From Microbulbifer sp. MI-G (GTDB taxonomy: Bacteria; Pseudomonadota; Gammaproteobacteria; Pseudomonadales; Cellvibrionaceae): a DNA stretch of 64,000 nucleotides. The stretch spans positions 2,779,501 through 2,843,500 of the forward strand of contig NZ_CP098023.1 in assembly GCF_030440425.1 (NCBI RefSeq). The letters are read 5' to 3'. The notes beneath the pieces are model-generated. The model saw nothing but the letters and a program-made list of their open reading frames with translations, made no database searches and was not told the origin of the DNA. The position numbers and the translations under genes are program-made. This document shows positions 44,210 to 55,487 of the stretch, one piece after another (position 1 is the first letter of the stretch; each line of letters begins with the position of its first letter).

Positions 44210-44980
44210 TTAATAATAGGATGCAATGTCATCCACGATCGGACCAAGGGCCCGATAGGCGTTGGAAATGTCCACACCATTTCTGCGCTCGCCGCACGGC
44301 AGGCCGCCACACTCATTCCAGTCCGGGTCGGAGAACCAGTCATACTGGGTGACATTGGCACCGTACCGCCAGGGATACGCCATGATCGTGGAGAACCGGT
44401 TGTCAACACCGTGTCCCAGACCGTAGGAGTAAACTCCGCCTGTGGTATCCCCCTGCTTGGTGGAATGTGTCAGCCCCATATTGTGGCCAAGCTCATGCAC
44501 GAAAGTGTTGTAACCGCAGTCGACCCCGGTAACGCTGTAGGCGCGATCACGGGCACTCGTATACATTCTGCCGTTCGCACCCTGGCCAACCCAGGCGATA
44601 CCACAAGTGATATAGGTGCTGCCGCCAATCACCTGCTCCTCCGCCTTGCCCAGCATAACCACCATGTCGGCATTTTCCGATGCGCGCCAGTTATTGACGG
44701 TTCTGTGGAAGGTAATCAAGTCCAGGGTGTCTTCATTCACCCGCAAATCCGAACTGGTGGCACGCCAGGAATCCACCAGACGAAGCTGGATATCCACACC
44801 ATTTCTTCGGTAAGAGTTATTCGCATAACTGATATAGTTGTCGATTTTTGCAGAGATATCACCGGTATGCTGCGCCGCAGGCGCAGTGTACATAATAGCA
44901 ATGTCAACCGTGTCTGCCGTTGCGACACTGGAAACAGTCAAGGCCGCAATAGCCACTGCCAGGCTTTTTTTGAAATCCAT
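44210..44980 (-). CDS. M12-type (reprolysin-like) secreted zinc metallopeptidase
   Basis: A 256-residue metzincin. After the signal peptide (1-22) the catalytic domain follows directly, with no propeptide. The zinc motif is HELGHNMGLTH (His162, His166, His172; Glu163 catalytic). The Met-turn is in STIMAYPW (Met200). Cysteines in TCGIAW, DCGYN and NECGGLPCG probably form disulfides. The enzyme likely acts outside the cell or in the periplasm. Lacking a fused prosequence, it may depend on the upstream gene, whose product resembles the propeptide region of related proteases. Confidence 0.86.
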   Translation of the reverse strand: MDFKKSLAVAIAALTVSSVATADTVDIAIMYTAPAAQHTGDISAKIDNYISYANNSYRRNGVDIQLRLVDSWRATSSDLRVNEDTLDLITFHRTVNNWRASENADMVVMLGKAEEQVIGGSTYITCGIAWVGQGANGRMYTSARDRAYSVTGVDCGYNTFVHELGHNMGLTHSTKQGDTTGGVYSYGLGHGVDNRFSTIMAYPWRYGANVTQYDWFSDPDWNECGGLPCGERRNGVDISNAYRALGPIVDDIASYY

Positions 44981-45217
44981 TATAAACTCCCATTATTATT
45001 ACTCGTGCATACCCTAATCCCCACAACCGACAGGGCACTGCCGGTTGTCGGTCAGTATATGTGCGATACACTTTTTCATACCCTGACTCGATAAAACGCG
45101 CATCCATCCCGTTTAATCGCCTGTGAAGATAAACTTCCGGTATCCGCAGGATTTACACCGATCCCTCCCTTGCCCGATGATCAATCCGAAGCCAATCACC
45201 CCGGACCAATTCTTGCC

Positions 45218-45901
45218 CTAGTCAAAATCATTCAGAGGTAAGTCCTGTTCCCCAAACGATTTCTCACGGGGCGCTTCCGATGACAGATCCTGATCATGTT
45301 TCTCTACGTGATTTTGAATCAGTGCACCGTTGGGGGCGATCCACGCATAGCCACCCTGGGCTTCCAGCGTGTAAGAGCCCGAAGGCAAATTCAGTTGTGC
45401 GTACACGGTATCCTTCCCGAGGGTAAAGGTAGCCCCATGCAGGCGGGTCAAACCGGGAAAGTTCATTTGCAGGCTTTTATTGCCACTGGCATGTTCCTCA
45501 ATATCCCCCACCTGGGCGTCATAGCTGCCTCCCACCCCCGGCAAAGTGATATCCAGGTAATCCCCGATCGCCAGGTTCCTCAAGGTTGCCACATCAATTT
45601 CCAGGTAGGTTTCCCCATTCAGATCAACCGGTAAGCGGCCGGATTCCTGCAGCACTTGCCGTGCCAGCTCCGATTCTGTCCATAAATTCTTTTCGACATC
45701 TTCGACACTTTCTACAGGTTCGTCACTAACGGAAGTTGGTGTCGTTTTTTCTGCAGAATTGTTTTCAGGCAATGTCTTATCCAAAGGGGCCACGGGCGCG
45801 CGTTGCTGCGCAGTGGGCCCGTGGGTATCGGATTGACTTTTCACCCAGAAGAAGTAACCCCCAGCCAGGAGGAGGGCAACGAGAGGAATTATTTTTTTCA
45901 C
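45218..45901 (-). CDS. Exported propeptide-like protein upstream of the M12 peptidase
   Basis: A 227-residue protein with a hydrophobic N-terminus (signal anchor or signal peptide, about 1-20) and a low-complexity linker rich in Pro, Glu and Ser. The C-terminal domain is at about 90-205 (LEIDVATLRNLAIGDYLDITLPG to YTLEAQGGYAWIAPNG). That domain resembles the beta-rich propeptides fused to other bacterial M12/reprolysin-like peptidases. The protease gene lies next, about 240 bp downstream on the same strand. A chaperone or inhibitor role is inference. The start is taken as GTG at 45901 behind a purine-rich GAGAAAAAG; an upstream start is possible. Confidence 0.62.
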   Translation of the reverse strand: MKKIIPLVALLLAGGYFFWVKSQSDTHGPTAQQRAPVAPLDKTLPENNSAEKTTPTSVSDEPVESVEDVEKNLWTESELARQVLQESGRLPVDLNGETYLEIDVATLRNLAIGDYLDITLPGVGGSYDAQVGDIEEHASGNKSLQMNFPGLTRLHGATFTLGKDTVYAQLNLPSGSYTLEAQGGYAWIAPNGALIQNHVEKHDQDLSSEAPREKSFGEQDLPLNDFD

Positions 45902-46237
45902 AATCTTTTTCTCGTAAAAATAACGCAAAATACTGCTTAAAGAACCAGCCAGTGGCCTGTACCAAAAACACTGCCGTGTCAAGACTGAACCCACCGCAGC
46001 AGCAGATACTTAACTGAGACGCTTAATGGTAATTTTCACGCAAAAAAAATTTAGGGAATGCTTCACAGAAGCTTCACAAAGCTGAAAAACCGGTGAACTT
46101 CCCTGTGGTTTTGTGGGCTGCGGCACAGGGTGGGAGGAGCGCAATAGTCTTCGGGAAAACCGCCCGCACACTGCCGGCGGCTCTTTTTGTGCTGTATTAA
46201 GCCGGCAGTGGGCTGGATGGGAAATCGGGTAATGCAC
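45902..46237. other. Gene-free stretch between the protease pair and the CobN-like gene
   Basis: Contains the presumed promoter of the propeptide-like gene. No gene or clear terminator was recognised. Confidence 0.45.
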
Positions 46238-49200
46238 TCACAGCGCCGAGGCCGTGCGGCGATAGCGGGAGTGCATAAGAGATTCAAAAAAGCTACTGCC
46301 AAAACCAATGAACACTATGCCCAGAAGCAACAACCACACCAGCGCGTGGGGGTTGTTCTGGGAACTGGGCTTTTCAACCTGTTCCAGCTTCTGGCCGCTG
46401 ACTTCTGAAGTTGCAGCCGTACTGGCAGAGACAGGGTCGGGTGCCTGTCCGTTCAACAGGGGAGTCAGGCCAAAGCCGAGCGCCTGGGTATTGACATACT
46501 CGGTGAATGTTTCATTGTCCGTCGCAATATCATGCCGGTTCGCCAGCTCCGTATAGGTCTCCAGCATTTTTTTCAGGGTTTGCGCATCTGCGGGCCAGTA
46601 GCCCTTGCGCACCGCCTCCAGCATCCGCTCCAGCATCTGCGCCAGGGCTTCGGCATTGTGCGTTTCAAAAAACGCGCGCATCTCCATCTGGTATTTGTCA
46701 TCCACATAGACTTCAAACATCTCCTGCCACTGGTCATCGCGGATGGTTTCCGGGGTCATCACCTCCCAGCCCCACATATTATTCACACGATCGAGAATGG
46801 CCGTGGCACCGGCGTAGCCAGACGCCTGCATAGCTTCAATCCAACGGGGGTGAAAGTAACGGCTGCGCATTTCCTGATTGATAAACGCCGCCAGTGTCTG
46901 GGTTTTCACCGAGTCCTTGCGGCGCAAGTTGGCAACGTACATCTCCGGTGTTTGTCCGTCCAGATTGCGCACCGCAAGCCCCATACCGCCGAAGTACTGA
47001 AAGGGATCGTCATTGGTCATCATCGCGTAGAGATTGGTGGAGCGCGAGAAAATCACCCCTTCGGTGCCGGACAATACCTTGCCATACAGCGCGATATTGC
47101 GCTGGTCCTCACCCCATCGGGATTCATCCCTGCCGTAGGCAAAGCCCATACGGCGCAGATACAGGTCTGCCAGCTTGTCATCCGTCTCCCAGCTATCGGA
47201 AGCCAGGCTGGCGCCATTCAGTCCAGTGCCGTAATTGCCACTCTCATTGGAGAAGATCCGCACTGAGGAAAGATAGCGGGCGTCTTCCTCGGAACTGCCC
47301 TCCTCCAGTAACTGTTGCTGCAAGGCCTGGCTGTGGCGGTAGACAAAGTTATTGTCCTCCTTCATCTGTGCCACCTTATCGATCGCCTCTGCCAGCCACA
47401 ACATCACATTGGGGAAGGCATCCCGGTACAGACCCGTTGCAGAGATCACGACATCGATTCGCGGGCGCTTCAGCTCTGAGTAGGGAATCACCTCGGTCCC
47501 GGCCACATTGCCCTGCTGGTTCCATTGTGGCCTGAGACCCAGTGCATGCAGTATCTGCGCTTCCAGTGCCCCCTGATGGCGCATGGTTTCCAGTGACCAG
47601 AGGGAAAAGGCCAGCTTGTTCGGGAATCGGCCGTGCTTTTCGCGATAATCGGCAATGGTCTGCTCCATCAGGTGCACACCGGCTGCGTAAGCTTCCCTGG
47701 AAGGCACCTTGGCCGGGTTGAACCCGATCAGGTTGCGCCCTGTGGGTACGGCCTGCGGATTGCGAATGGGGTCCCCCCCATGGCTCACCGGAATATACTT
47801 GCCGTCGAGTGCAGACATCAGGTTTGGCAGCTCGGCGATATGGGCGAAATTGTCCGCGTACATCCGGCCCTGCTGCAGATGGTTTTGCAGCTCTTCGGAC
47901 AATTCAGGCAGCTTGCGCCCGGCCAGATAGGCATCCAGTAGCTGGTAGCCCGGCTGGGCTTGCAGCGCCATGACATTGCGTGCATCAAGCACCTGCTCCT
48001 GCGGCAGGCTCAACTGCTGCTCCACTTCGTATTGCCCGGCAGCTGCAATGAAATCCTCACCCAGCATTTGCAGCATGGTGCTGGTAAGATGCTCAGGCTT
48101 GGGCAACTGGCCAAAACGGTGGATGCCGAGGGGCTGGCTCATTTCTGCCAACTGACCCAGGTGATCCTGCAGGCGACTGAGCTGGCTATCAAAATCCGCC
48201 CGCAAATTTTCAGCGCTGATTTCCAGGTCCTTGAGCATATTCAGCTTTTCCGCCAGAGCGACAATGCGCTCCCGGGTATTCAGCCGGGTCTGCCCTTCCT
48301 CCAAAATCAGGTAGTTGCCAATCAGCTCGGAAAGCTCTGCCACTTCTGCATAGAGGCCCGCTTTGGCAAAGCCCGGTGTCAGGTGGCTGATCATGGTGGC
48401 GCGGCCACGGCGTTTGGCCTGCATGGCCTCGCCCACATTGTCGATAATATAGGGATAGAACACCGGGATATTACCCAGGGCCAGATTGGGTGCATCGTAG
48501 ACGGACAACCCGCGCTCCTTGCCGGTGAGCCACTCCTGGGACCCGTGGGTACCCAGGTGGATATAGGCATCGGCCCCGAACGTCTCGCGCGCATAGAGAT
48601 AAACCGCCAGGTAGGCGTGGTTCACCGGGGTTTTCATATCGTGATACAGGGATGAATGATCCTTGGCATTCTCCGCCCGCACGCCCTGGGGCAGGACAAT
48701 CAGGTTGCCCAGCGTCATGCGCGGAATCACAAACGCCCGCTCACCCTTGTGCTCTGCCAGCATGGCACTGTCTTCCGGCTTGCCCCAGCGCGTCACAATG
48801 GGATCGCGCACCGCGGATGGCAGAGTATTGAACCAGTCGACATAGGTGGAAAGTGGCATCCAGTCTGCCAGGCCCTTGTCAATCAGCGCGGCACTGTCTT
48901 CGCGGCGATAATAAGGGCGCAGCAACTGGCCAGCCCAGTCGATCAGGGTATTGGAATCCCGCTGGTCTATTTGATAGCCGCGCTCCGCCATGGCCCTGGC
49001 GATTGATTCTATGGATGAGGGTACATCGAGAAAGGCCGCACCAATATTCTTTTCCCCCGGGGGATAATTCCAGATAAAGGTGGCGACTTTTTTCCGGGCA
49101 TTCGGTTTATATCCCAGTGAGGCCTGGCTCCAGGCGCGCTCCACCAACGCATTGAGTGGGTCTGCCATCACCACCTTATTGCCACCTTCGCTGGCGGCGA

Positions 49201-50191
49201 TGATGACCGGGTCAATACTGCCGGTATCCTCGGGCATCACCAGAAAGAAGGGCGTTAATGACGGGGACACACCACTGTTATCGGCGAGGTAATCCGCTTC
49301 GCTACCCTCTGTGTAATTCAAAGCGTGAATAACCGGCACCCCCAGTTTCTCGAACTCTGCGCGGCGCTTACTCACATAATGCAGGGAGCGATAGTTGATC
49401 ATCAGGTCGATACGGGTTTGCCCCGCTTCATCCTGCAACAGGTCCGGGTAAGCAAGTGGCAAGTCCTCACCCTCAAAGAAAAACCCAAAGGCTCTTGCCC
49501 CTTTTCCCTCCAGGCCACTCAGAAGGGCATCGACTACCTGCTGCTGTTCGTAATCCACCACCGAGCGGTGAATAGCCAGGGCAATGACCGGTTGCTCACC
49601 GGAGGCCTGCAACCACTTAAAGAAATTCTCTTCATTATCGGTCACCAGCTGTGGCAGGCGTGGATGATAGAACCCCACTTTCGGCACTGTGATGGGATCC
49701 GCCACAGCAAGCTCGGAGAGAGCGAAGACCTCAGCGGAAAGAAACTGCAACAAGTGCCGGTAATTCTGACGCCCGGCATTGTTGAAGTATGCAGCGATGG
49801 CCTTGTGCTGCCTGGCGGACAGTCCCTGATTCATGGATTCGTTATCCGCATCCCCGAGGGAAATCACCGGCACTTTGGGATATTGAGCCAGCATTGGCTG
49901 GAATTTTCCAAACATAAACTGCGACAGCGGCGGATTGATACCATCGAGCATCACCAGGCTTGAGGAGGCCCAGGCCTGTGCTATTTGTTCTTCACTCTTC
50001 CCCTTGCTGTTAAAAATCTCCAGGGTAAACGGCTGGTCCGCGGCCAGATCAGTTAACAGGTCTCCCTTGGCTTTGGCAGTGTGACTGGACATCATCAGCA
50101 ATACACTGGGTGTATCGCCGGCCTCTACCGTCAAAGCACAAAGAGCGATCAGAGCCATACCTGCCAGGCGCAGACTATAGTTCTTCAGCAT
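46238..50191 (-). CDS. Exported CobN-like (HmuS-like) chelatase-family protein
   Basis: A 1317-residue protein of the CobN/magnesium-chelatase H family, recognised from blocks such as ERGYQIDQRDSNTLIDWAGQ, HLGTHGSQEWLTGKERGLS, PVFYPYIIDNVGEAMQAKRRG and DVVISATGLYRDAFPN. Unlike cytosolic CobN it has an N-terminal signal peptide (about 1-24) and a single C-terminal transmembrane segment (about 1283-1302), so the body should face the periplasm. It follows TolQ/ExbB-like and DUF2149 genes and is divergent from a heme-type TonB receptor. This is the context of HmuS, a heme dechelatase of the Bacteroides hmu operon, rather than of cobalamin synthesis. No cobalamin gene is nearby. Confidence 0.85.
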   Translation of the reverse strand: MLKNYSLRLAGMALIALCALTVEAGDTPSVLLMMSSHTAKAKGDLLTDLAADQPFTLEIFNSKGKSEEQIAQAWASSSLVMLDGINPPLSQFMFGKFQPMLAQYPKVPVISLGDADNESMNQGLSARQHKAIAAYFNNAGRQNYRHLLQFLSAEVFALSELAVADPITVPKVGFYHPRLPQLVTDNEENFFKWLQASGEQPVIALAIHRSVVDYEQQQVVDALLSGLEGKGARAFGFFFEGEDLPLAYPDLLQDEAGQTRIDLMINYRSLHYVSKRRAEFEKLGVPVIHALNYTEGSEADYLADNSGVSPSLTPFFLVMPEDTGSIDPVIIAASEGGNKVVMADPLNALVERAWSQASLGYKPNARKKVATFIWNYPPGEKNIGAAFLDVPSSIESIARAMAERGYQIDQRDSNTLIDWAGQLLRPYYRREDSAALIDKGLADWMPLSTYVDWFNTLPSAVRDPIVTRWGKPEDSAMLAEHKGERAFVIPRMTLGNLIVLPQGVRAENAKDHSSLYHDMKTPVNHAYLAVYLYARETFGADAYIHLGTHGSQEWLTGKERGLSVYDAPNLALGNIPVFYPYIIDNVGEAMQAKRRGRATMISHLTPGFAKAGLYAEVAELSELIGNYLILEEGQTRLNTRERIVALAEKLNMLKDLEISAENLRADFDSQLSRLQDHLGQLAEMSQPLGIHRFGQLPKPEHLTSTMLQMLGEDFIAAAGQYEVEQQLSLPQEQVLDARNVMALQAQPGYQLLDAYLAGRKLPELSEELQNHLQQGRMYADNFAHIAELPNLMSALDGKYIPVSHGGDPIRNPQAVPTGRNLIGFNPAKVPSREAYAAGVHLMEQTIADYREKHGRFPNKLAFSLWSLETMRHQGALEAQILHALGLRPQWNQQGNVAGTEVIPYSELKRPRIDVVISATGLYRDAFPNVMLWLAEAIDKVAQMKEDNNFVYRHSQALQQQLLEEGSSEEDARYLSSVRIFSNESGNYGTGLNGASLASDSWETDDKLADLYLRRMGFAYGRDESRWGEDQRNIALYGKVLSGTEGVIFSRSTNLYAMMTNDDPFQYFGGMGLAVRNLDGQTPEMYVANLRRKDSVKTQTLAAFINQEMRSRYFHPRWIEAMQASGYAGATAILDRVNNMWGWEVMTPETIRDDQWQEMFEVYVDDKYQMEMRAFFETHNAEALAQMLERMLEAVRKGYWPADAQTLKKMLETYTELANRHDIATDNETFTEYVNTQALGFGLTPLLNGQAPDPVSASTAATSEVSGQKLEQVEKPSSQNNPHALVWLLLLGIVFIGFGSSFFESLMHSRYRRTASAL

Positions 50192-50193
50192 GG

Positions 50194-50541
50194 CTATTTA
50201 CCCCCTGCAGCTTTGTTGAGTGAAGGCGCTTCCTTTTCTTCCGGTACATACACCAGGCTGCCATCGGCCATCTGGTAGGCAACCCCCGCACGAGTGCCCT
50301 CGCCTGAACCAATTTCACCGCTGGACTTGTACTGCCGGATCTCCCGGCCATCTTTTACGATCACTTCCATATTGGGTTCGCCGGCATTCTTGATTACCGT
50401 GACCTTTTCACTGGAAAAAACATTGAGAGGGTTTTGCGCGATGGCGATCAGGAGTGCAGCGATGATCACCAGGAAGACATCAATCAGGTTGACCGCACTC
50501 AGAATTGGATTGAGTTCTTCATCTTCATCCAGAAAGCGCAT
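50194..50541 (-). CDS. DUF2149-family membrane protein (HmuU-like)
   Basis: A 115-residue protein with one transmembrane helix (about 18-38) after a short acidic N-terminus (RFLDEDEELNPILSAVNLIDVF), the hallmark of DUF2149. The periplasmic C-terminal part has VTVIKNAGEPNMEVIVKDGREI and GEGTRAGVAYQMADGSLVYVPE. The family is found with CobN-like chelatases and ExbB-like proteins in archaea and in hmu operons; it may replace ExbD in an energy-coupling complex. The ATG overlaps the TGA of the upstream gene (TGATG). Confidence 0.82.
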   Translation of the reverse strand: MRFLDEDEELNPILSAVNLIDVFLVIIAALLIAIAQNPLNVFSSEKVTVIKNAGEPNMEVIVKDGREIRQYKSSGEIGSGEGTRAGVAYQMADGSLVYVPEEKEAPSLNKAAGGK

Positions 50542-51071
50542 CAGGCCAACTCCTTCAACTTGCGGATATTGATCAGCTCAGCGGCAAACCAGCGCTTTTT
50601 CACCGAGGCGGGCCAGAAGGTGAGTGTGGCAATCACCAGCCCCCAGATCACCGCGGCAAAGGCAATGATCAGGTTTTCGCTGATGCCCTGGATATTGCCA
50701 TCGGCCAGGGCACGCAGCGCCGGTCCCATGGGGATCATGGTGGCAATCAATCCCAGCATGGGGGCGATGCGGGTGGCCATACGCAGCGTTTCCAGTTTCT
50801 TCAATGCGAACACCTCCAGTTCGTCCTCACAGGCCGTGGGGTGACGCACAAAGTAGTTATGCACCTGGTACCCAGGCAGCCACTCGGCCCGCCCCTGTCT
50901 CAGTGCCAGCCGATAGGCAACGGTGTTGCGGCGGCGCAGCAGCCACAGGGCAACAAAGCGCCCCGCGGCGTAGAGGGCATAGACAAACATGGCCAGGATC
51001 ATGAGCAGCACCGGGGTCATCAGCACATCGGCCACATTCGCCATCAGGTTTTCAATCGTCGCAATAATCAC
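50541..51071 (-). CDS. MotA/TolQ/ExbB-like proton channel family protein (HmuT-like)
   Basis: A 176-residue membrane protein with the three-helix ExbB/TolQ layout: a first helix (about 19-40), a long cytoplasmic loop with KKLETLRMATRIAPMLGLIATMIPMGPAL (third-helix start with the conserved glycine/proline motif), and IIAFAAVIWGLVIATLTFWPA. It probably pairs with the DUF2149 protein and energises the CobN-like protein or the receptor. A GTG start at 51071 is used because GGGGAGG lies 6 bases upstream. It is the first gene of the minus-strand operon. Confidence 0.82.
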   Translation of the reverse strand: MIIATIENLMANVADVLMTPVLLMILAMFVYALYAAGRFVALWLLRRRNTVAYRLALRQGRAEWLPGYQVHNYFVRHPTACEDELEVFALKKLETLRMATRIAPMLGLIATMIPMGPALRALADGNIQGISENLIIAFAAVIWGLVIATLTFWPASVKKRWFAAELINIRKLKELA

Positions 51072-51459
51072 CGCAAGCCTCCCCAGCCCGGCTGTTGTCG
51101 TTGTGTAGCAAAGGCCGCGAAAAGTACCCGAACAATTCGGTAGGGTCAAATTTAATCTAATTAAAATTGATTATCATTTAGCTTTACATTTGTTGTCCAC
51201 TCCCTATAATCCGCTTCCGGTAACCCGGCAACCAAAAAGGTCGCGGGGTTGCTGCGGCACAGGGAGCTGCCGCTGCCGGCTTGCCGCCGGCACGGGCCCC
51301 GAAACACCAGTGATTCCTCGCAGTTGCGCAGAGTTCGGGAGCGGCCCCCAACAGGTCACGGAAGGCCTGTTGGGGACCGGGCTGACACCGGGCCAACGCG
51401 GTGGACACTGTGCCGGCGCACCACCCTGGCAAGCGCAAAAACAACGCAAGGACAACACC
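51072..51459. other. Divergent intergenic region and receptor mRNA leader
   Basis: It contains a Fur-box-like element at 51163-51181 and a receptor leader of roughly 250-280 bases. Several G/C-rich stem-loops are present, including a perfect 10-bp stem with a 10-base loop (51346-51355 with 51366-51375) and GCCGGC-TTGCC-GCCGGC near 51278. No cobalamin riboswitch core was recognised. Confidence 0.5.
51163..51181 (+). promoter_or_regulatory. Fur-box-like operator in the receptor/CobN-like intergenic region
   Basis: The sequence AAAATTGATTATCATTTAG matches 12 of 19 bases of the Fur consensus, and the core GATTATCATT differs from GATAATCATT at only one base. It lies between the divergent receptor and chelatase operons, so it could repress both under iron-replete conditions. 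A position-weight scan is needed to score it properly. Confidence 0.6.
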
Positions 51460-53628
51460 ATGCAACTTCGCCCACTCGCAGCGGCCTTTCTGGGCCTGGC
51501 TTCCTCCTCCAACCTCTTTGCAGAGACTGCGCCCGCTCCCTCCGCCGATGACCTGGAGCTGATTGTTGTCAGCGGCCGCGCGGAAAAACCGCTGAAAGAC
51601 GTTACCGGCAGTATTTCCGTGGTAACCAGTGATGAAATCGAACAGCTGCAGCTCAACGATATGAACCAGCTGTTTCAATACGAGCCGGGCGTCGACGTCA
51701 CCGGAGTGGTGGGCGGTGCGCAGAATATCCTGGTGCGCGGTATGGGCGGAGACCGCGTGCTGATTATCAAGGACGGTATGCGGGTCAATGAGGGCTATGG
51801 CGCAAATGGCCTGAACGATATTGTGGGCCGCGGCTTTATTGAGGTGGACACCCTGAAACAGGTGGAAGTGGCCAAGGGCGCCGCATCCTCCCTGTATGGC
51901 TCCGATGCCCTGGCGGGCATTGTGGTCTTTGTCACCAAGGACGCCAGCGACTACCTGGAGGATGGGGCGCAGTTCGGCGGCACCCTGAAAACCGGTTACA
52001 CCGGCATTACCCACCAGACACATCTCTCCCCCACCCTGGCCCATCGCGCGGGCAATTTTGAACAGCTGCTGCAGATGGCTTACCGCGACGGCGAGGAACA
52101 GCAAAATTACCATGAGACCCGGATCCCCTTCCAGATTGAATCCGAAAGTCTGCTGTACAAGGCCAGGTACAATCTGGGCGGCGAGGATTTTATCGGCTTC
52201 AGTATCGACCACTGGCAGCAGGAAACCGAGGGTGGGCGTGCCAATGGTCTGTTGAGTAACTTCCGTCACTTAGCCAGTTTCGGCTACAACATCGTTGAGG
52301 AACACACTGTCTCCAACAGGGAAACCCGCGCGTATCAGCTGCGCTATCACAGTGCAACCCCCACTGGCGTCTACGACCAGTTGAACATCAGCCTGTACCG
52401 CAACGAGTCAGAGCAGGAAGACGAGCAGTATGCACGCCTGGATATCAATGCGCCCCAATTCGGCGTATTCGAAATCCGCGACATGTGGGAAACCGGTCTC
52501 TACCGCCAGGATACCCTCGGCCTGCTGTCCAATGCCAGCATCACCCTCAACGACACCCATACCCTGGGCTACGGCCTGGACCTGGAGCGCACCGAGAGCC
52601 GCCGCACCGTTCACCAGTACCGGGAAGTGGAAACGACTACCACCCGGGATTTGACCACGGATAAATTCCCGCAAAACGAGGTAAGCCGTGCCGGCCTGTT
52701 CCTGAACGACGAGATGACCCTTGCCGCCGACCGGCTTACGATCACGCCGGGACTCCGGTACGACTGGTACGACATGGATCCCGGTGGTGCCCTGAAATCG
52801 GACGGCACCCCCTACACCACCATTGAGGAAAGTAACCTCTCCCTCAACCTCGGCGCCCTGTACAGAATCAATACGCACCTGTCCGCCTTTGCCCAGTACG
52901 GCCAGGGGTTCAGGGTGCCGGCTTACGATCTGGCCTATATCGAGCATGAGCAGCGCTTCTCGGACTACATTTACCAGATACTGCCCGCCGATGACCTGGC
53001 ACCGGAAACCAGCGATACCTTCGAACTGGGCTTGCGCGGGCACTGGGGCTCCCTGACCTTCAGCAGCGCTGCTTTCTATACAAAGTACGACGATTTCCTG
53101 CAGGCCGCCCTGGTCCACAGTGAGCGGATATTCGACGACGCAGGCAATTTCTCCCACGACCTGGATCAGTACCAGTACCAGAACATCGAGTCCGTCACTA
53201 TCAAGGGGGTGGAACTCGCTGCCAGCTGGTCCCTGTCTGCGGCCATCGAGTTGTTTGCCAACGCCAGCTACCAGCACGGCAAGGACGACGCTACCGGCGA
53301 TTACCTCACCAGTATCAGCCCGCTCTCCGGGGTGGTCGGGGCCAGCTACAGCGGCACCAGGCTCTCCAGCCAATTGCTGCTGCGCTGGGCAAACCGCATG
53401 CACCTGGTCAATGACAACGAGACGGAAACCGCCGGCTTTGGCACCGTGGACTGGGTGATGGGCTACCAGCTGTTGGATCAATTGTCTGTGAATCTGGCGG
53501 TCAACAACCTGTTCGACAAATACTATGTGCCCTATTTGAATGTGGCGGGCCGCGACGCGGTCAGCGATCTGTCGGTCAATGCCGCGCCGGGGCGCACCTT
53601 CTCCGCATCGCTCCGGTACACTTTTTAA
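51460..53628 (+). CDS. TonB-dependent heme/hemoglobin-family outer-membrane receptor
   Basis: A 722-residue receptor. Signal peptide about 1-21, TonB-box-like DDLELIVVSGR at about 30-40, plug about 43-162 (SISVVTSDEIEQL, NILVRGMGGDRVLIIKDGMRV, AKGAASSLYGSDALAG), then a 22-strand-type barrel ending in LRYTF. The hemoglobin/transferrin/lactoferrin receptor pattern includes QYGQGFRVPAYDLAYIEHEQ at about 480-500. It is transcribed away from the CobN-like operon, with a Fur-box-like site between, so heme or iron-porphyrin uptake is the best reading. The ATG at 51460 is chosen because it starts the signal peptide; a longer upstream frame lacks one. Confidence 0.9.
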   Translation: MQLRPLAAAFLGLASSSNLFAETAPAPSADDLELIVVSGRAEKPLKDVTGSISVVTSDEIEQLQLNDMNQLFQYEPGVDVTGVVGGAQNILVRGMGGDRVLIIKDGMRVNEGYGANGLNDIVGRGFIEVDTLKQVEVAKGAASSLYGSDALAGIVVFVTKDASDYLEDGAQFGGTLKTGYTGITHQTHLSPTLAHRAGNFEQLLQMAYRDGEEQQNYHETRIPFQIESESLLYKARYNLGGEDFIGFSIDHWQQETEGGRANGLLSNFRHLASFGYNIVEEHTVSNRETRAYQLRYHSATPTGVYDQLNISLYRNESEQEDEQYARLDINAPQFGVFEIRDMWETGLYRQDTLGLLSNASITLNDTHTLGYGLDLERTESRRTVHQYREVETTTTRDLTTDKFPQNEVSRAGLFLNDEMTLAADRLTITPGLRYDWYDMDPGGALKSDGTPYTTIEESNLSLNLGALYRINTHLSAFAQYGQGFRVPAYDLAYIEHEQRFSDYIYQILPADDLAPETSDTFELGLRGHWGSLTFSSAAFYTKYDDFLQAALVHSERIFDDAGNFSHDLDQYQYQNIESVTIKGVELAASWSLSAAIELFANASYQHGKDDATGDYLTSISPLSGVVGASYSGTRLSSQLLLRWANRMHLVNDNETETAGFGTVDWVMGYQLLDQLSVNLAVNNLFDKYYVPYLNVAGRDAVSDLSVNAAPGRTFSASLRYTF

Positions 53629-53660
53629 TTACCCCTCCCACGTTTTATTCAGTCTCTTTC

Positions 53661-53684
53661 GGCCGCCCCCATGCGGCCTTTTTT
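53661..53684 (+). terminator. Intrinsic terminator after the TonB receptor gene
   Basis: The stem GGCCGC (53661-53666) pairs with GCGGCC (53673-53678) around the loop CCCCAT, followed by six T residues. It lies 32 bp after the receptor stop. Confidence 0.9.
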
Positions 53685-53834
53685 ATTTGTTGGTCAGCAA
53701 GTTTTCAAAGCCCTCCTGTGGGAGCCGGCGAGCCCGGAAAAACCCGCGCGCCCCTGTGCCGAGGACAGAGGCGGCACACAGCCCATGAAACAGATACAAT
53801 ACGCACAAAAAGACCAACAGAAAGGCAAATCACC

Positions 53835-55487
53835 ATGCAGATTCTCCGCACACTGGCAGCCGCACTGGTGGCCGCCGCTTCCATGGGTGCCCAGGCCACC
53901 ACGCTGATACACAACGTTTCCGGGTACCAGACAACGGACAGGGCCCTGGTCCGCTTCAACGCCCTGGCCTTTGACCGCGGCAAGGTGCTGGCAAGCGGTG
54001 ATTTTCAGCAGCTCAACCGGCAGTATCCCCAGGCACAGAAAATCGATGCGGGGGGCAAAACCCTGTTGCCCGGGCTCATCGACGCCCACGGGCATATGCT
54101 GGGGCTCGGTCAGTTGAACCGGATGCTGGATTTGCGCGACCAATCGCTCGACAGCGCCCGGGTATCCATCAAGCAGTATGCCAAACAGCTGGCACCCGGC
54201 GAGTGGCTGCTCGGGCGCGGCTGGAACCAGGTCACCTGGCCCGGCAAACAATTTCCCACCCGCACACAACTGGATACCCTGGACATCGACCATCCCATCT
54301 GGCTGCGACGCGTCGACGGCCATGCGGGCTGGGCCAACTCCAAGACCCTGCGCCTCGCCGGTATCGACCGGCATACCGCGGCTCCGGAGGGCGGGGAAAT
54401 CCTGCGCGATGCCAGCGGCGAACCCACCGGCATACTGATCGACAATGCCATGGGCCTGTTGCAGCGGGTGATCCCCAAACCCACCCTGGCCCAGGATAAA
54501 AAATCCCTGCAGGATGCATTTGCGCAGGCGCTGGCTGTGGGACTGACCAGCGTGCACGATGCCGGCATTAACGAGCAGACCCTGCAGGCCTACCGGGAAC
54601 TCGCGCGGGAAAACGCGATCCCCCTGCGGATGTACCCCATGCTCTCGGTTAACAGCCACAACTACGCCAAACTTCTGCGTGCCGGGCATATCGGCAGTCC
54701 CTCCGAGCGGCTCTATATGCGCAGTATCAAACTATCCGCCGATGGCGCCCTCGGCAGCCGCGGTGCCGCGCTGCTGGAACCCTACCACGACCGCCCGCAG
54801 GAGAAAGGGCTGCTGCTCTACCCGGAAGCAGAGATGCTATCGCTGCTAAAACTTGCCAGCGATAACCAGTTTCAGATCAATGTGCACGCCATTGGCGACC
54901 GCGCCAACCATATCGTGCTGAACCACCTGGAAACCCTGCACAAGGCCAGCAGCCAGAAAGACCACCGCCACCGCGTAGAGCATGCCCAGGTCCTCCAGGT
55001 GAAGGATATCCCCCGTTTCCAGCGCCTCAACCTGATCGCCTCCATGCAGCCCACCCACGCCACCAGCGATAAAAATATGGCCGGCGCGCGCCTCGGCGAG
55101 GCGCGCCTGACCGGGGCCTATGCCTGGCAGACCCTGCTGAAGCAGGGCACCCCCATTGCCGCCGGTTCGGACTTTCCGGTGGAGCCGGCCAATCCGCTCT
55201 TCGGCCTGCACGCCGCGGTCACCCGCCGCGACCGCCAGGGCGCACCCGAGCGGGGCTGGCGCGCGGCGGAGGCCATGAGCCTCGAACAGGCCCTGCGCGC
55301 CTTCACCCTGGACGCCGCCTATGCGAGCCACCAGGAAATGGTGATCGGCAACCTCACGCCGGGGAAATTTGCCGACTTTATCCTTCTGGATCGGGATATT
55401 TTTGCCATAGACCCACAGGCAATCTGGCGCGCGCAGGTGCTGGAAACCTGGGTGGAAGGGGAAAAGGTGTACACCAGGGACCACTGA
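53835..55487 (+). CDS. Exported amidohydrolase (YtcJ-like, metal-dependent)
   Basis: A 550-residue amidohydrolase. A signal peptide (about 1-21) precedes a domain with the metal-binding LPGLIDAHGHMLGLG motif at about 75-89, then HVEHAQVL-type ligands (INVHAIGDRANHIV and HRHRVEHAQVLQ) and the catalytic SDFPVEPANPLFGLHAAVTR block, ending with GKFADFILLDRDIF. The pattern is that of the YtcJ/DUF amidohydrolase family, usually active on amides, esters or carbamates; the substrate is unknown. The ATG at 53835 is taken because the signal peptide begins there. It follows the receptor by about 200 bp, beyond its terminator. Confidence 0.86.
   Translation: MQILRTLAAALVAAASMGAQATTLIHNVSGYQTTDRALVRFNALAFDRGKVLASGDFQQLNRQYPQAQKIDAGGKTLLPGLIDAHGHMLGLGQLNRMLDLRDQSLDSARVSIKQYAKQLAPGEWLLGRGWNQVTWPGKQFPTRTQLDTLDIDHPIWLRRVDGHAGWANSKTLRLAGIDRHTAAPEGGEILRDASGEPTGILIDNAMGLLQRVIPKPTLAQDKKSLQDAFAQALAVGLTSVHDAGINEQTLQAYRELARENAIPLRMYPMLSVNSHNYAKLLRAGHIGSPSERLYMRSIKLSADGALGSRGAALLEPYHDRPQEKGLLLYPEAEMLSLLKLASDNQFQINVHAIGDRANHIVLNHLETLHKASSQKDHRHRVEHAQVLQVKDIPRFQRLNLIASMQPTHATSDKNMAGARLGEARLTGAYAWQTLLKQGTPIAAGSDFPVEPANPLFGLHAAVTRRDRQGAPERGWRAAEAMSLEQALRAFTLDAAYASHQEMVIGNLTPGKFADFILLDRDIFAIDPQAIWRAQVLETWVEGEKVYTRDH

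Follow-up and report, generated by a model that had tools for sequence, protein, structure and literature searches.

A candidate heme-acquisition module with an exported, HmuS-related CobN-like chelatase in Microbulbifer sp. MI-G

Four genes in a 64,000-nucleotide stretch of the Microbulbifer sp. MI-G genome (contig NZ_CP098023.1, positions 2,779,501 to 2,843,500; hereafter the window, whose numbering we use) encode a heme-type TonB-dependent receptor and, divergently from it, an ExbB-family protein, a DUF2149 protein and an exported CobN-like chelatase; a Fur-type box lies in the gap between receptor gene and operon. We see about an even chance that this module acquires heme during iron starvation, with the chelatase stripping iron from heme in the periplasm. 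Its gene content, its conservation, the Fur-type site and, within the limits of the trees described below, the ancestry of the chelatase were observed directly, and sequence comparison identifies the chelatase as a probable member of a sister family of HmuS rather than as HmuS proper. A preliminary description made from the DNA letters had called the module HmuS-like; the grouping with HmuS held, whereas the equation with HmuS proper did not, four published markers having failed.

The chelatase gene (46238..50191, minus strand) encodes 1317 residues that match PF02514 with 1035.5 bits, between a signal peptide and a C-terminal membrane anchor. The signal-type N-terminus (residues 1-24; 50120..50191, minus strand) reaches a hydropathy of 1.66 at residue 7, its cleavage site being judged by eye, and the anchor (residues 1284-1302; 46286..46342, minus strand) reaches 2.31. 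Tightly packed with it on the minus strand, in the order ExbB, DUF2149, CobN-like, are genes for a DUF2149 (HmuV-like) protein of 115 residues (50194..50541; PF09919, 102.1 bits), whose single membrane segment carries Asp21, and for a MotA/TolQ/ExbB-family proton channel (HmuU-like) of 177 residues (50541..51074; PF01618, 33.8 bits). The open frame of the latter extends to 51149; reading off the sequence, we propose the GTG at 51074, which follows GGGGAGG, as the start that yields 177 residues, and the corresponding frames of many relatives measure 175-181 residues, with homologue matches starting near this GTG. The receptor gene (51460..53628, plus strand; 722 residues, HmuR/PhuR-like) diverges across 51075-51459. 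Family profiles and hydropathy thus place all four genes where the preliminary description had seen them, and its hmu-like set stands, although the order in Bacteroides finegoldii (HmuY, receptor, CobN, a hypothetical protein in the place of HmuT, MotA/TolQ/ExbB, DUF2149) makes the set R-S-U-V rather than the proposed R-S-T-U.

Compared with hmuYRSTUV of Bacteroidota, the window thus has four of six types (R, S, U and V), with HmuY and HmuT missing and R divergent. The HmuS systems of Bacteroidota (PMC12583661; PMC10100974; PMC13227078; BtuS1/BtuS2 of B. fragilis, PMC6460266) share with the window a receptor, ExbB, DUF2149 and an exported CobN-like protein in which each terminus carries a hydrophobic segment; low-iron induction there has its counterpart in the Fur-type box here, and the His538 motif and the side of the tree are common to both. 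One of these reports (PMC10100974) records a pattern without HmuY and HmuT in 140 species and places about 99% of its genomes in Bacteroidetes. Among the matches listed in the open-licence literature, we found no description of the Fur/heme version in Gammaproteobacteria.

Trees link the protein to HmuS. Under a mixture model, a 35-row tree, made by removing 16 of 51 rows (among them L025 and all rows of the L112 type), separated HmuS and 24 ExbB/DUF2149-linked proteins from the remaining rows by a branch with a Shimodaira-Hasegawa-like approximate likelihood ratio (SH-aLRT) support of 99.6. Approximately unbiased (AU) tests, which rest on this reduced set and on groups named after earlier trees had been inspected, rejected forcing the linked proteins together with CobN (p-AU 0.0072) or with BchH (p-AU 0.00036), which speaks against the grouping with cobalamin or chlorophyll chelatases that the preliminary description had itself named as the case against it. 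The 51-row tree, with three HmuS sequences and again a mixture model, split HmuS and the linked proteins from CobN and BchH with support of 90, and in a larger tree of 95 of 112 rows (17 near-copies removed) HmuS formed a long branch of 1.98. Nine gammaproteobacterial proteins considered as HmuS with an insertion (L112-L120; open frames of 1436-1511 residues) were rejected as such on their motifs (HLGRHSTYEFL and NNDAFDYLGGL-type), their spacing between the places of H538 and H1209 (485-505 residues, against 517 in the window protein) and their separate clade; their genes adjoin ExbB and a divergent DUF2149. Members of the sister family, named CobN in databases, are paired with heme-type, CirA-like or riboswitch-controlled receptors. 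In Catenovulum maritimum (L054, 8866-17433, plus strand), two tandem CobN-like paralogues fall into two sub-clades.

Among solved structures, HmuS (9d26; 421.6 bits, E 5.4e-125) was the best phmmer match of the chelatase and CobN (7c6o; 407) the next, and these scores are too close to decide its affiliation. The protein reaches 1309.7 bits on NF004644, "cobaltochelatase subunit CobN" (cut-off 1248), a model also passed by L020, L098, L102 and L022 and failed by the HmuS of L027, by Trichlorobacter L024 and by the true CobN of L028. The top scores on it belong to exported proteins (L022, 1918; L098, 1455). A CobN whose gene neighbours are CobW and an ATPase reaches only 617 there but 1608 on TIGR02257; NF004644 behaves as a model of the exported proteobacterial sister family. 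C-terminal hydropathy maxima lie at 1.26-3.04 in HmuS and the other rows outside CobN/BchH, with the truncated L081 (0.67) as the exception, and at 0.07-1.04 in eight CobN/BchH rows, which have no such anchor. The membrane segments at both ends that characterize HmuS are present in the window protein by hydropathy, and its body would accordingly lie in the periplasm. With CobN and BchH the protein has in common the PF02514 family and the conserved histidine motif; it differs from them by its anchor, by their cobalamin or bacteriochlorophyll gene neighbours and by the rejected groupings.

Of the residues published as HmuS markers, just two have counterparts here. The HFG(T/A)HG motif is present as HLGTHG (residues 545-550; 48542..48559, minus strand) with H549 at the place of His538, a weak marker since the motif is superfamily-wide, and Glu588 corresponds to Glu577, both residues being conserved throughout the superfamily; turnover was abolished in the His538 alanine mutant of HmuS (PMC12583661). 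Trp-Ser at HmuS Ser1014 is common to the window protein and HmuS, where CobN/BchH rows have Trp-Gly, L024 has Ala and L026 has Cys. His271 (49379..49381, minus strand), two residues past the place of the lost His254 of HmuS, is conserved in 11 of 11 close rows, the window included. An Aureibacter HmuS with HmuY in its operon (L139) is without Met79 and without a Met-rich stretch, though its domain IV is long, so that some HmuS markers are not universal. Three proteobacterial members with the HmuS-type His1209/Glu1212 (DHPFEYLGG; L123, 9362-13441, minus strand; L124, 9257-13519, minus strand; L022, 6911-10831, plus strand) would be better candidates than the window protein for classical HmuS chemistry.

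The receptor resembles heme receptors by several measures. It scores above the cut-offs of both TIGR01786 (400.2 against 323.75) and TIGR01785 (384.6 against 316.85), as do four of four orthologues tested (L020, L048, L067 and L061), and its nearest solved chain is the heme receptor PhuR (8the, E 5.6e-60). The residue in the place, read from the printed alignment, of the PhuR heme ligand Tyr519 is Tyr in 43 of 43 receptor rows (L020, L037 and L045, which are outside the 47 close loci described below, among them). The differences from PhuR are a Gly at the place of the PhuR residue His124 and a His three residues past the Tyr, which is kept in 41 of 43. Nitrosomonas L060 combines a CobN-like protein 60% identical to the window's with a different receptor (25% identical to the window's) that is also heme-type (546.7 bits against 316.85), an independent pairing of a close CobN-like protein with a heme-type receptor, and the Cupriavidus L102 receptor passes the heme cut-offs as well. 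Altogether 7 of 16 receptors tested beside such modules pass; those of L075, L083, L090, L098, L104, L024, L026, L053 and L027 fail, and because L027 is the HmuR of a complete hmu operon, failing a heme cut-off does not exclude heme.

A Fur-type box (51160..51178; AATGATAATCAATTTTAAT on the reverse strand) separates the receptor gene from the operon. Against the 19-bp form of the classical consensus (other registers had given weaker scores) it matches at 14 of 18 positions, a value reached by none of 200 Markov resamples and none of 39 other 470-bp tiles in a 20-kb stretch. Among 39 relatives, whose loci are related and hence not independent trials, 29 reach a Markov p of at most 0.01 and 29 have no other tile as good, and the window, counted apart from these, does both; the Fur-box-like site of the preliminary description is accordingly shared by the majority of close relatives but not by every one. 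Among 13 loci at a greater distance, where the region itself is among the tiles and the lowest possible count is 1, a Fur-type site unmatched by other tiles precedes the receptor in eight, at 13-15 of 18 positions in L098, L109, L102, L096, L108 and L095 and at only 12 of 18 in L104 and L094; none was found before the receptor in L099, L103, L090, L088 and L021. Zur-type consensus scores did not exceed the 95% level of shuffles in 38 of 39 relatives, L062 being the one above, nor in the window, which scores at that level, and the Zur-site pattern GWWAYWNNNTWHCR is unmatched in 51051-51470. From these scans, we infer that such modules are commonly under iron control. For Shewanella piezotolerans and P. 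pseudoalcaligenes, the searchable text of reports on Fur contains no mention of cobN or cobaltochelatase.

Signs of cobalamin control were sought as well. No Rfam family, cobalamin riboswitch included, matches 45000-54000 at E<=1, and none of six close loci scanned has a cobalamin riboswitch at the gathering score. Seven other loci yielded two such riboswitches, both on a Trichlorobacter plasmid (L024, 2185-2651, plus strand), where they precede receptor, DUF2162, ExbB, DUF2149, CobN, ExbB, ExbD and TonB genes, with bzaF nearby. The receptor gene of the window has a GC-rich, strongly folding leader (51180..51459, plus strand; z -5.41 against 200 shuffles of 51185-51459), which has no Rfam match and, among the loci compared, a full-length match (82%) only in L062. 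The distance from the Fur-type site to the called receptor start is 76-123 bp in L033-L036 and L074 against 281 in the window.

The arrangement is well conserved among close relatives. A scan of genome contigs gave 418 relatives, of which we used the best 80. A set of 47 close loci, the window included, was drawn up without near-copies L037 and L045, the plasmid-collection entry L020 and truncated L073 and L080. Their neighbour clusters contain CobN-like proteins in 47, ExbB in 46 and TonB receptors, loosely clustered as 52 frames, in 45, with no other cluster in more than five; DUF2149, mostly under the length limit of this clustering, was seen in separate comparisons. In 40 of the 47 the receptor is at least 45% identical to the window's and divergent from the operon as it is there; in L072 it is split into two frames, and the contig of L041 ends before it. 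Pseudoalteromonas, Colwellia, Thalassotalea and some Shewanella share the layout and the Fur-type box. Within the window's genus DUF2149 occurs in 17 of 48 genomes, and the module is therefore patchy. A Runella plasmid (L026, 1-16763) carries a receptor, a urease-accessory-like protein, ExbB, DUF2149 and a CobN-like protein amid hypF, hypC-type, hypD and hypE, possibly a nickel version of the module.

Several observations bear on what the ExbB/DUF2149 pair energizes. One published view makes HmuU and HmuV, as ExbB and ExbD, the receptor's helpers (PMC10100974), and another report describes HmuV as without homology to any known family (PMC13227078). The DUF2149 membrane segment aligns with that of ExbD, its Asp included, at an hhalign P of 0.002, over 27 columns with a probability of only 13.9% and no ExbD periplasmic domain aligned; the Asp position is acidic in every row printed and Glu in Runella L026. 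We entertain, as a tentative proposal that is rather less likely than otherwise, that the pair is the motor of the chelatase and not the energizer of the receptor, that the whole branch, HmuS included, was re-motored by a channel driven by the proton-motive force, because the AAA+ partners that drive CobN and BchH with ATP are out of reach of a CobN-type enzyme outside the cytoplasm, and that lineages then swapped receptors for heme, zinc, nickel and corrinoid chelates. Service to the chelatase is suggested by the confinement of DUF2149 to genomes with PF02514: of 274 Gammaproteobacteria genomes, the window's own included, 18 have DUF2149 and 35 have PF02514, and all 18 are among those 35, with the two genes within 2 kb in 16 of 18 and within 5 kb in G066 and G192. 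It is suggested also by eight CobN/BchH loci (L028-L031 and L128-L131) without a match to the window ExbB or DUF2149, of which L028, L029 and L031 carry ATPase, VWA or "putative cobaltochelatase" neighbours instead, and by Trichlorobacter L024, which has the pair beside an adjoining, separate ExbB-ExbD-TonB set. Finally, Methanosarcina acetivorans, a control genome, matches both PF02514 and DUF2149 in a co-occurrence at genome level, which argues the same way since a methanogen has no outer membrane; Methanomicrobia also appear in published lists of HmuS and HmuV clusters (PMC10100974).

The substrate, the direction of the reaction and the energy coupling of the module are what we infer in the following scheme. 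At low iron, one of the TonB systems of the cell would drive the receptor to carry heme into the periplasm. There the CobN-like protein, held in the inner membrane by its anchor and with its body in the periplasm, would bind the porphyrin in its central cleft. Iron would be stripped with His549 and Glu588, an acidic face of Asp1061 and Asp1062 replacing the second histidine of HmuS, and would reach the cytoplasm without FeoB, a route for which an FTR1-type permease is the candidate, FTR1 having been found in the genome. The ExbB/DUF2149 proton channel would energize the receptor or, as we think more likely, the chelatase itself.

A number of results weigh against this heme-acquisition reading. 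The gene set alone is no proof of heme, because related modules have CirA-like receptors, cobalamin riboswitches, hydrogenase-maturation genes or Zur control; CirA-like receptors are found in both Pseudomonadaceae loci tested (L098 and L104), and TIGR01786 includes transferrin-type receptors. A receptor other than the window's type stands in 5 of the 47 close loci (L053, L054, L059, L060 and L069), that of L060 passing the heme cut-offs and that of L053 not, and Fur-type scores are weak in 10 of the 39 relatives, with L057 and L064 at chance. In the 51-row tree, the L112-type clade (four of its nine proteins included) falls with CobN and BchH, and the HmuS side takes in L025, a protein without an ExbB/DUF2149 match; these placements speak against one tidy clade of linked, re-motored proteins. 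The chelatase itself departs from HmuS: the motif LSLDHxxEFMGG with His1209/Glu1212 is not matched, the window having MTNDDPFQYFGG (DDPFQYFGG, residues 1061-1069; 46985..47011, minus strand) with CobN-like Asp1062 and Gln1065 in those places; the site-1 heme ligands are absent, Met79 being replaced by Ile and His254 by Ser269; and the methionine-rich domain IV insertion is missing, 28 residues (758-785) standing between two aligned blocks where HmuS 9d26 has 188 (745-932). This block alignment is a better test of the insertion than H538-H1209 spacing, which is 546-606 in CobN rows too; Met-rich stretches hold 18 Met in 60 residues in L138 and only 7 in L027, and there is none in the window region. 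Of the 179 alignment columns peculiar to HmuS the window protein shares 33, and of the 100 peculiar to CobN likewise 33.

The rest of the genome adds to these points. A heme oxygenase locus (C1:382000-399000, L135) includes ExbB, ExbD and TonB genes of its own as well as a receptor of STN type (307 against a heme cut-off of 317), beside FecI/FecR-like and Dpp-like permease frames, both named by eye. The suggestion in the preliminary description of an alternative to heme oxygenase was therefore too strong, and the module would be an addition rather than a replacement. HemS, FeoB, ZIP and NRAMP were searched in the genome and none was found; FeoB is reported to be needed for heme iron by B. fragilis (PMC6460266), a further difference from that HmuS system.

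The most developed alternative is that the chelatase acts on another metal-tetrapyrrole or chelate (of zinc, cobalt, nickel or a corrinoid) in metal salvage, which we regard as unlikely. Its model is PA1922-PA1925 of P. aeruginosa, which by published names has the same four gene types (receptor, CobN-like, "ExbD", DUF2149) and which has a Zur site and, when znuA is mutated, an expression increase of 44.7-147.3 fold (PMC4542158); its publication as a Zur/zinc operon also means that the gammaproteobacterial occurrence, which the preliminary description had pointed out, is not itself new. The Trichlorobacter plasmid with its riboswitches and bzaF, Runella L026 amid hyp genes and the CobN-like D1062/Q1065 lean the same way. 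Against this, the box of the window's clade is Fur-type where PA1922-PA1925 is under Zur control, its receptor is heme-type where theirs is named CirA, cobalamin riboswitches are absent from the window stretch and the six close loci, and six distant loci, L098 and L109 among them, have Fur-type sites of 13-15 positions before the receptor; Pseudomonadaceae relatives L098, L104 and L109 belong to a clade neighbouring the window's, and, according to a zinc review, P. aeruginosa seems to be alone in placing PA1922 under Zur. Quite unlikely, in our estimate, is a CobN-like protein that merely carries heme or porphyrin, or delivers it, without dechelatase activity, leaving heme oxygenase to free the iron: the loss of the second cleft histidine, Met79 and His254 and the heme oxygenase locus would fit, while the counterparts of His538 and Glu577 are strictly kept and the only strong FecCD-type permease in the genome, a potential heme permease, adjoins B12-uptake-type genes and CobO, with the Dpp-like permease frames near heme oxygenase as a reservation.

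Running the enzyme forward, so that metal is inserted in the periplasm into scavenged metal-free porphyrin, seems very improbable under Fur-type control and beside a heme-type receptor, and we know of no use for a periplasmic metalloporphyrin in this host. The superfamily gives the idea its footing, known cytoplasmic members inserting Mg or Co and HmuS being described as the reverse (PMC12583661). The NCBI family name implies a cobaltochelatase that serves B12 synthesis, and the NF004644 score formally supports this, but such a role is already contradicted and hardly credible. CbiC, the sole corrin-pathway family searched, has no match in the genome; the protein, the product of the only PF02514 gene there, has a signal-type N-terminus and an anchor; no AAA+ protein is among the neighbours scanned (one, at 45218-45994, being without a family); and NF004644, as noted, favours exported proteins. 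As far as the locus itself goes, the preliminary description was right to see no cobalamin genes, B12-uptake-type genes being present elsewhere: a BtuB-like receptor (272 bits, below cut-off), a periplasmic binding protein, the FecCD permease and CobO.

The module lies in a 4.48-Mb genome, and named Microbulbifer homologues match its CobN-like protein at up to 90% identity; the genes flanking the module are less constant. A reprolysin-like metallopeptidase (44210-44980, minus strand) and a protein without a family match (45218-45994, minus strand) lie downstream of the chelatase gene, a pair present in only 5 of the 47 close loci, all Microbulbifer, the window included. An Amidohydrolase-3 family gene (53718-55487, plus strand) directly follows the receptor gene and is also kept in L034, L035 and L062.

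The observations of the preliminary description are thus confirmed and its interpretation is partly supported. In the literature searched, iron removal from heme that spares the ring is shown for HmuS of Bacteroidota only. If the heme-acquisition reading is true, the sister family would extend ring-sparing iron removal to another phylum, and HmuS features such as the second histidine of the cleft and the heme site between head and neck would be dispensable for it. The database name cobaltochelatase CobN (NF004644) would then be corrected, the zinc operon PA1922-PA1925 would be seen anew, and the power source of an extracytoplasmic chelatase would become directly testable.

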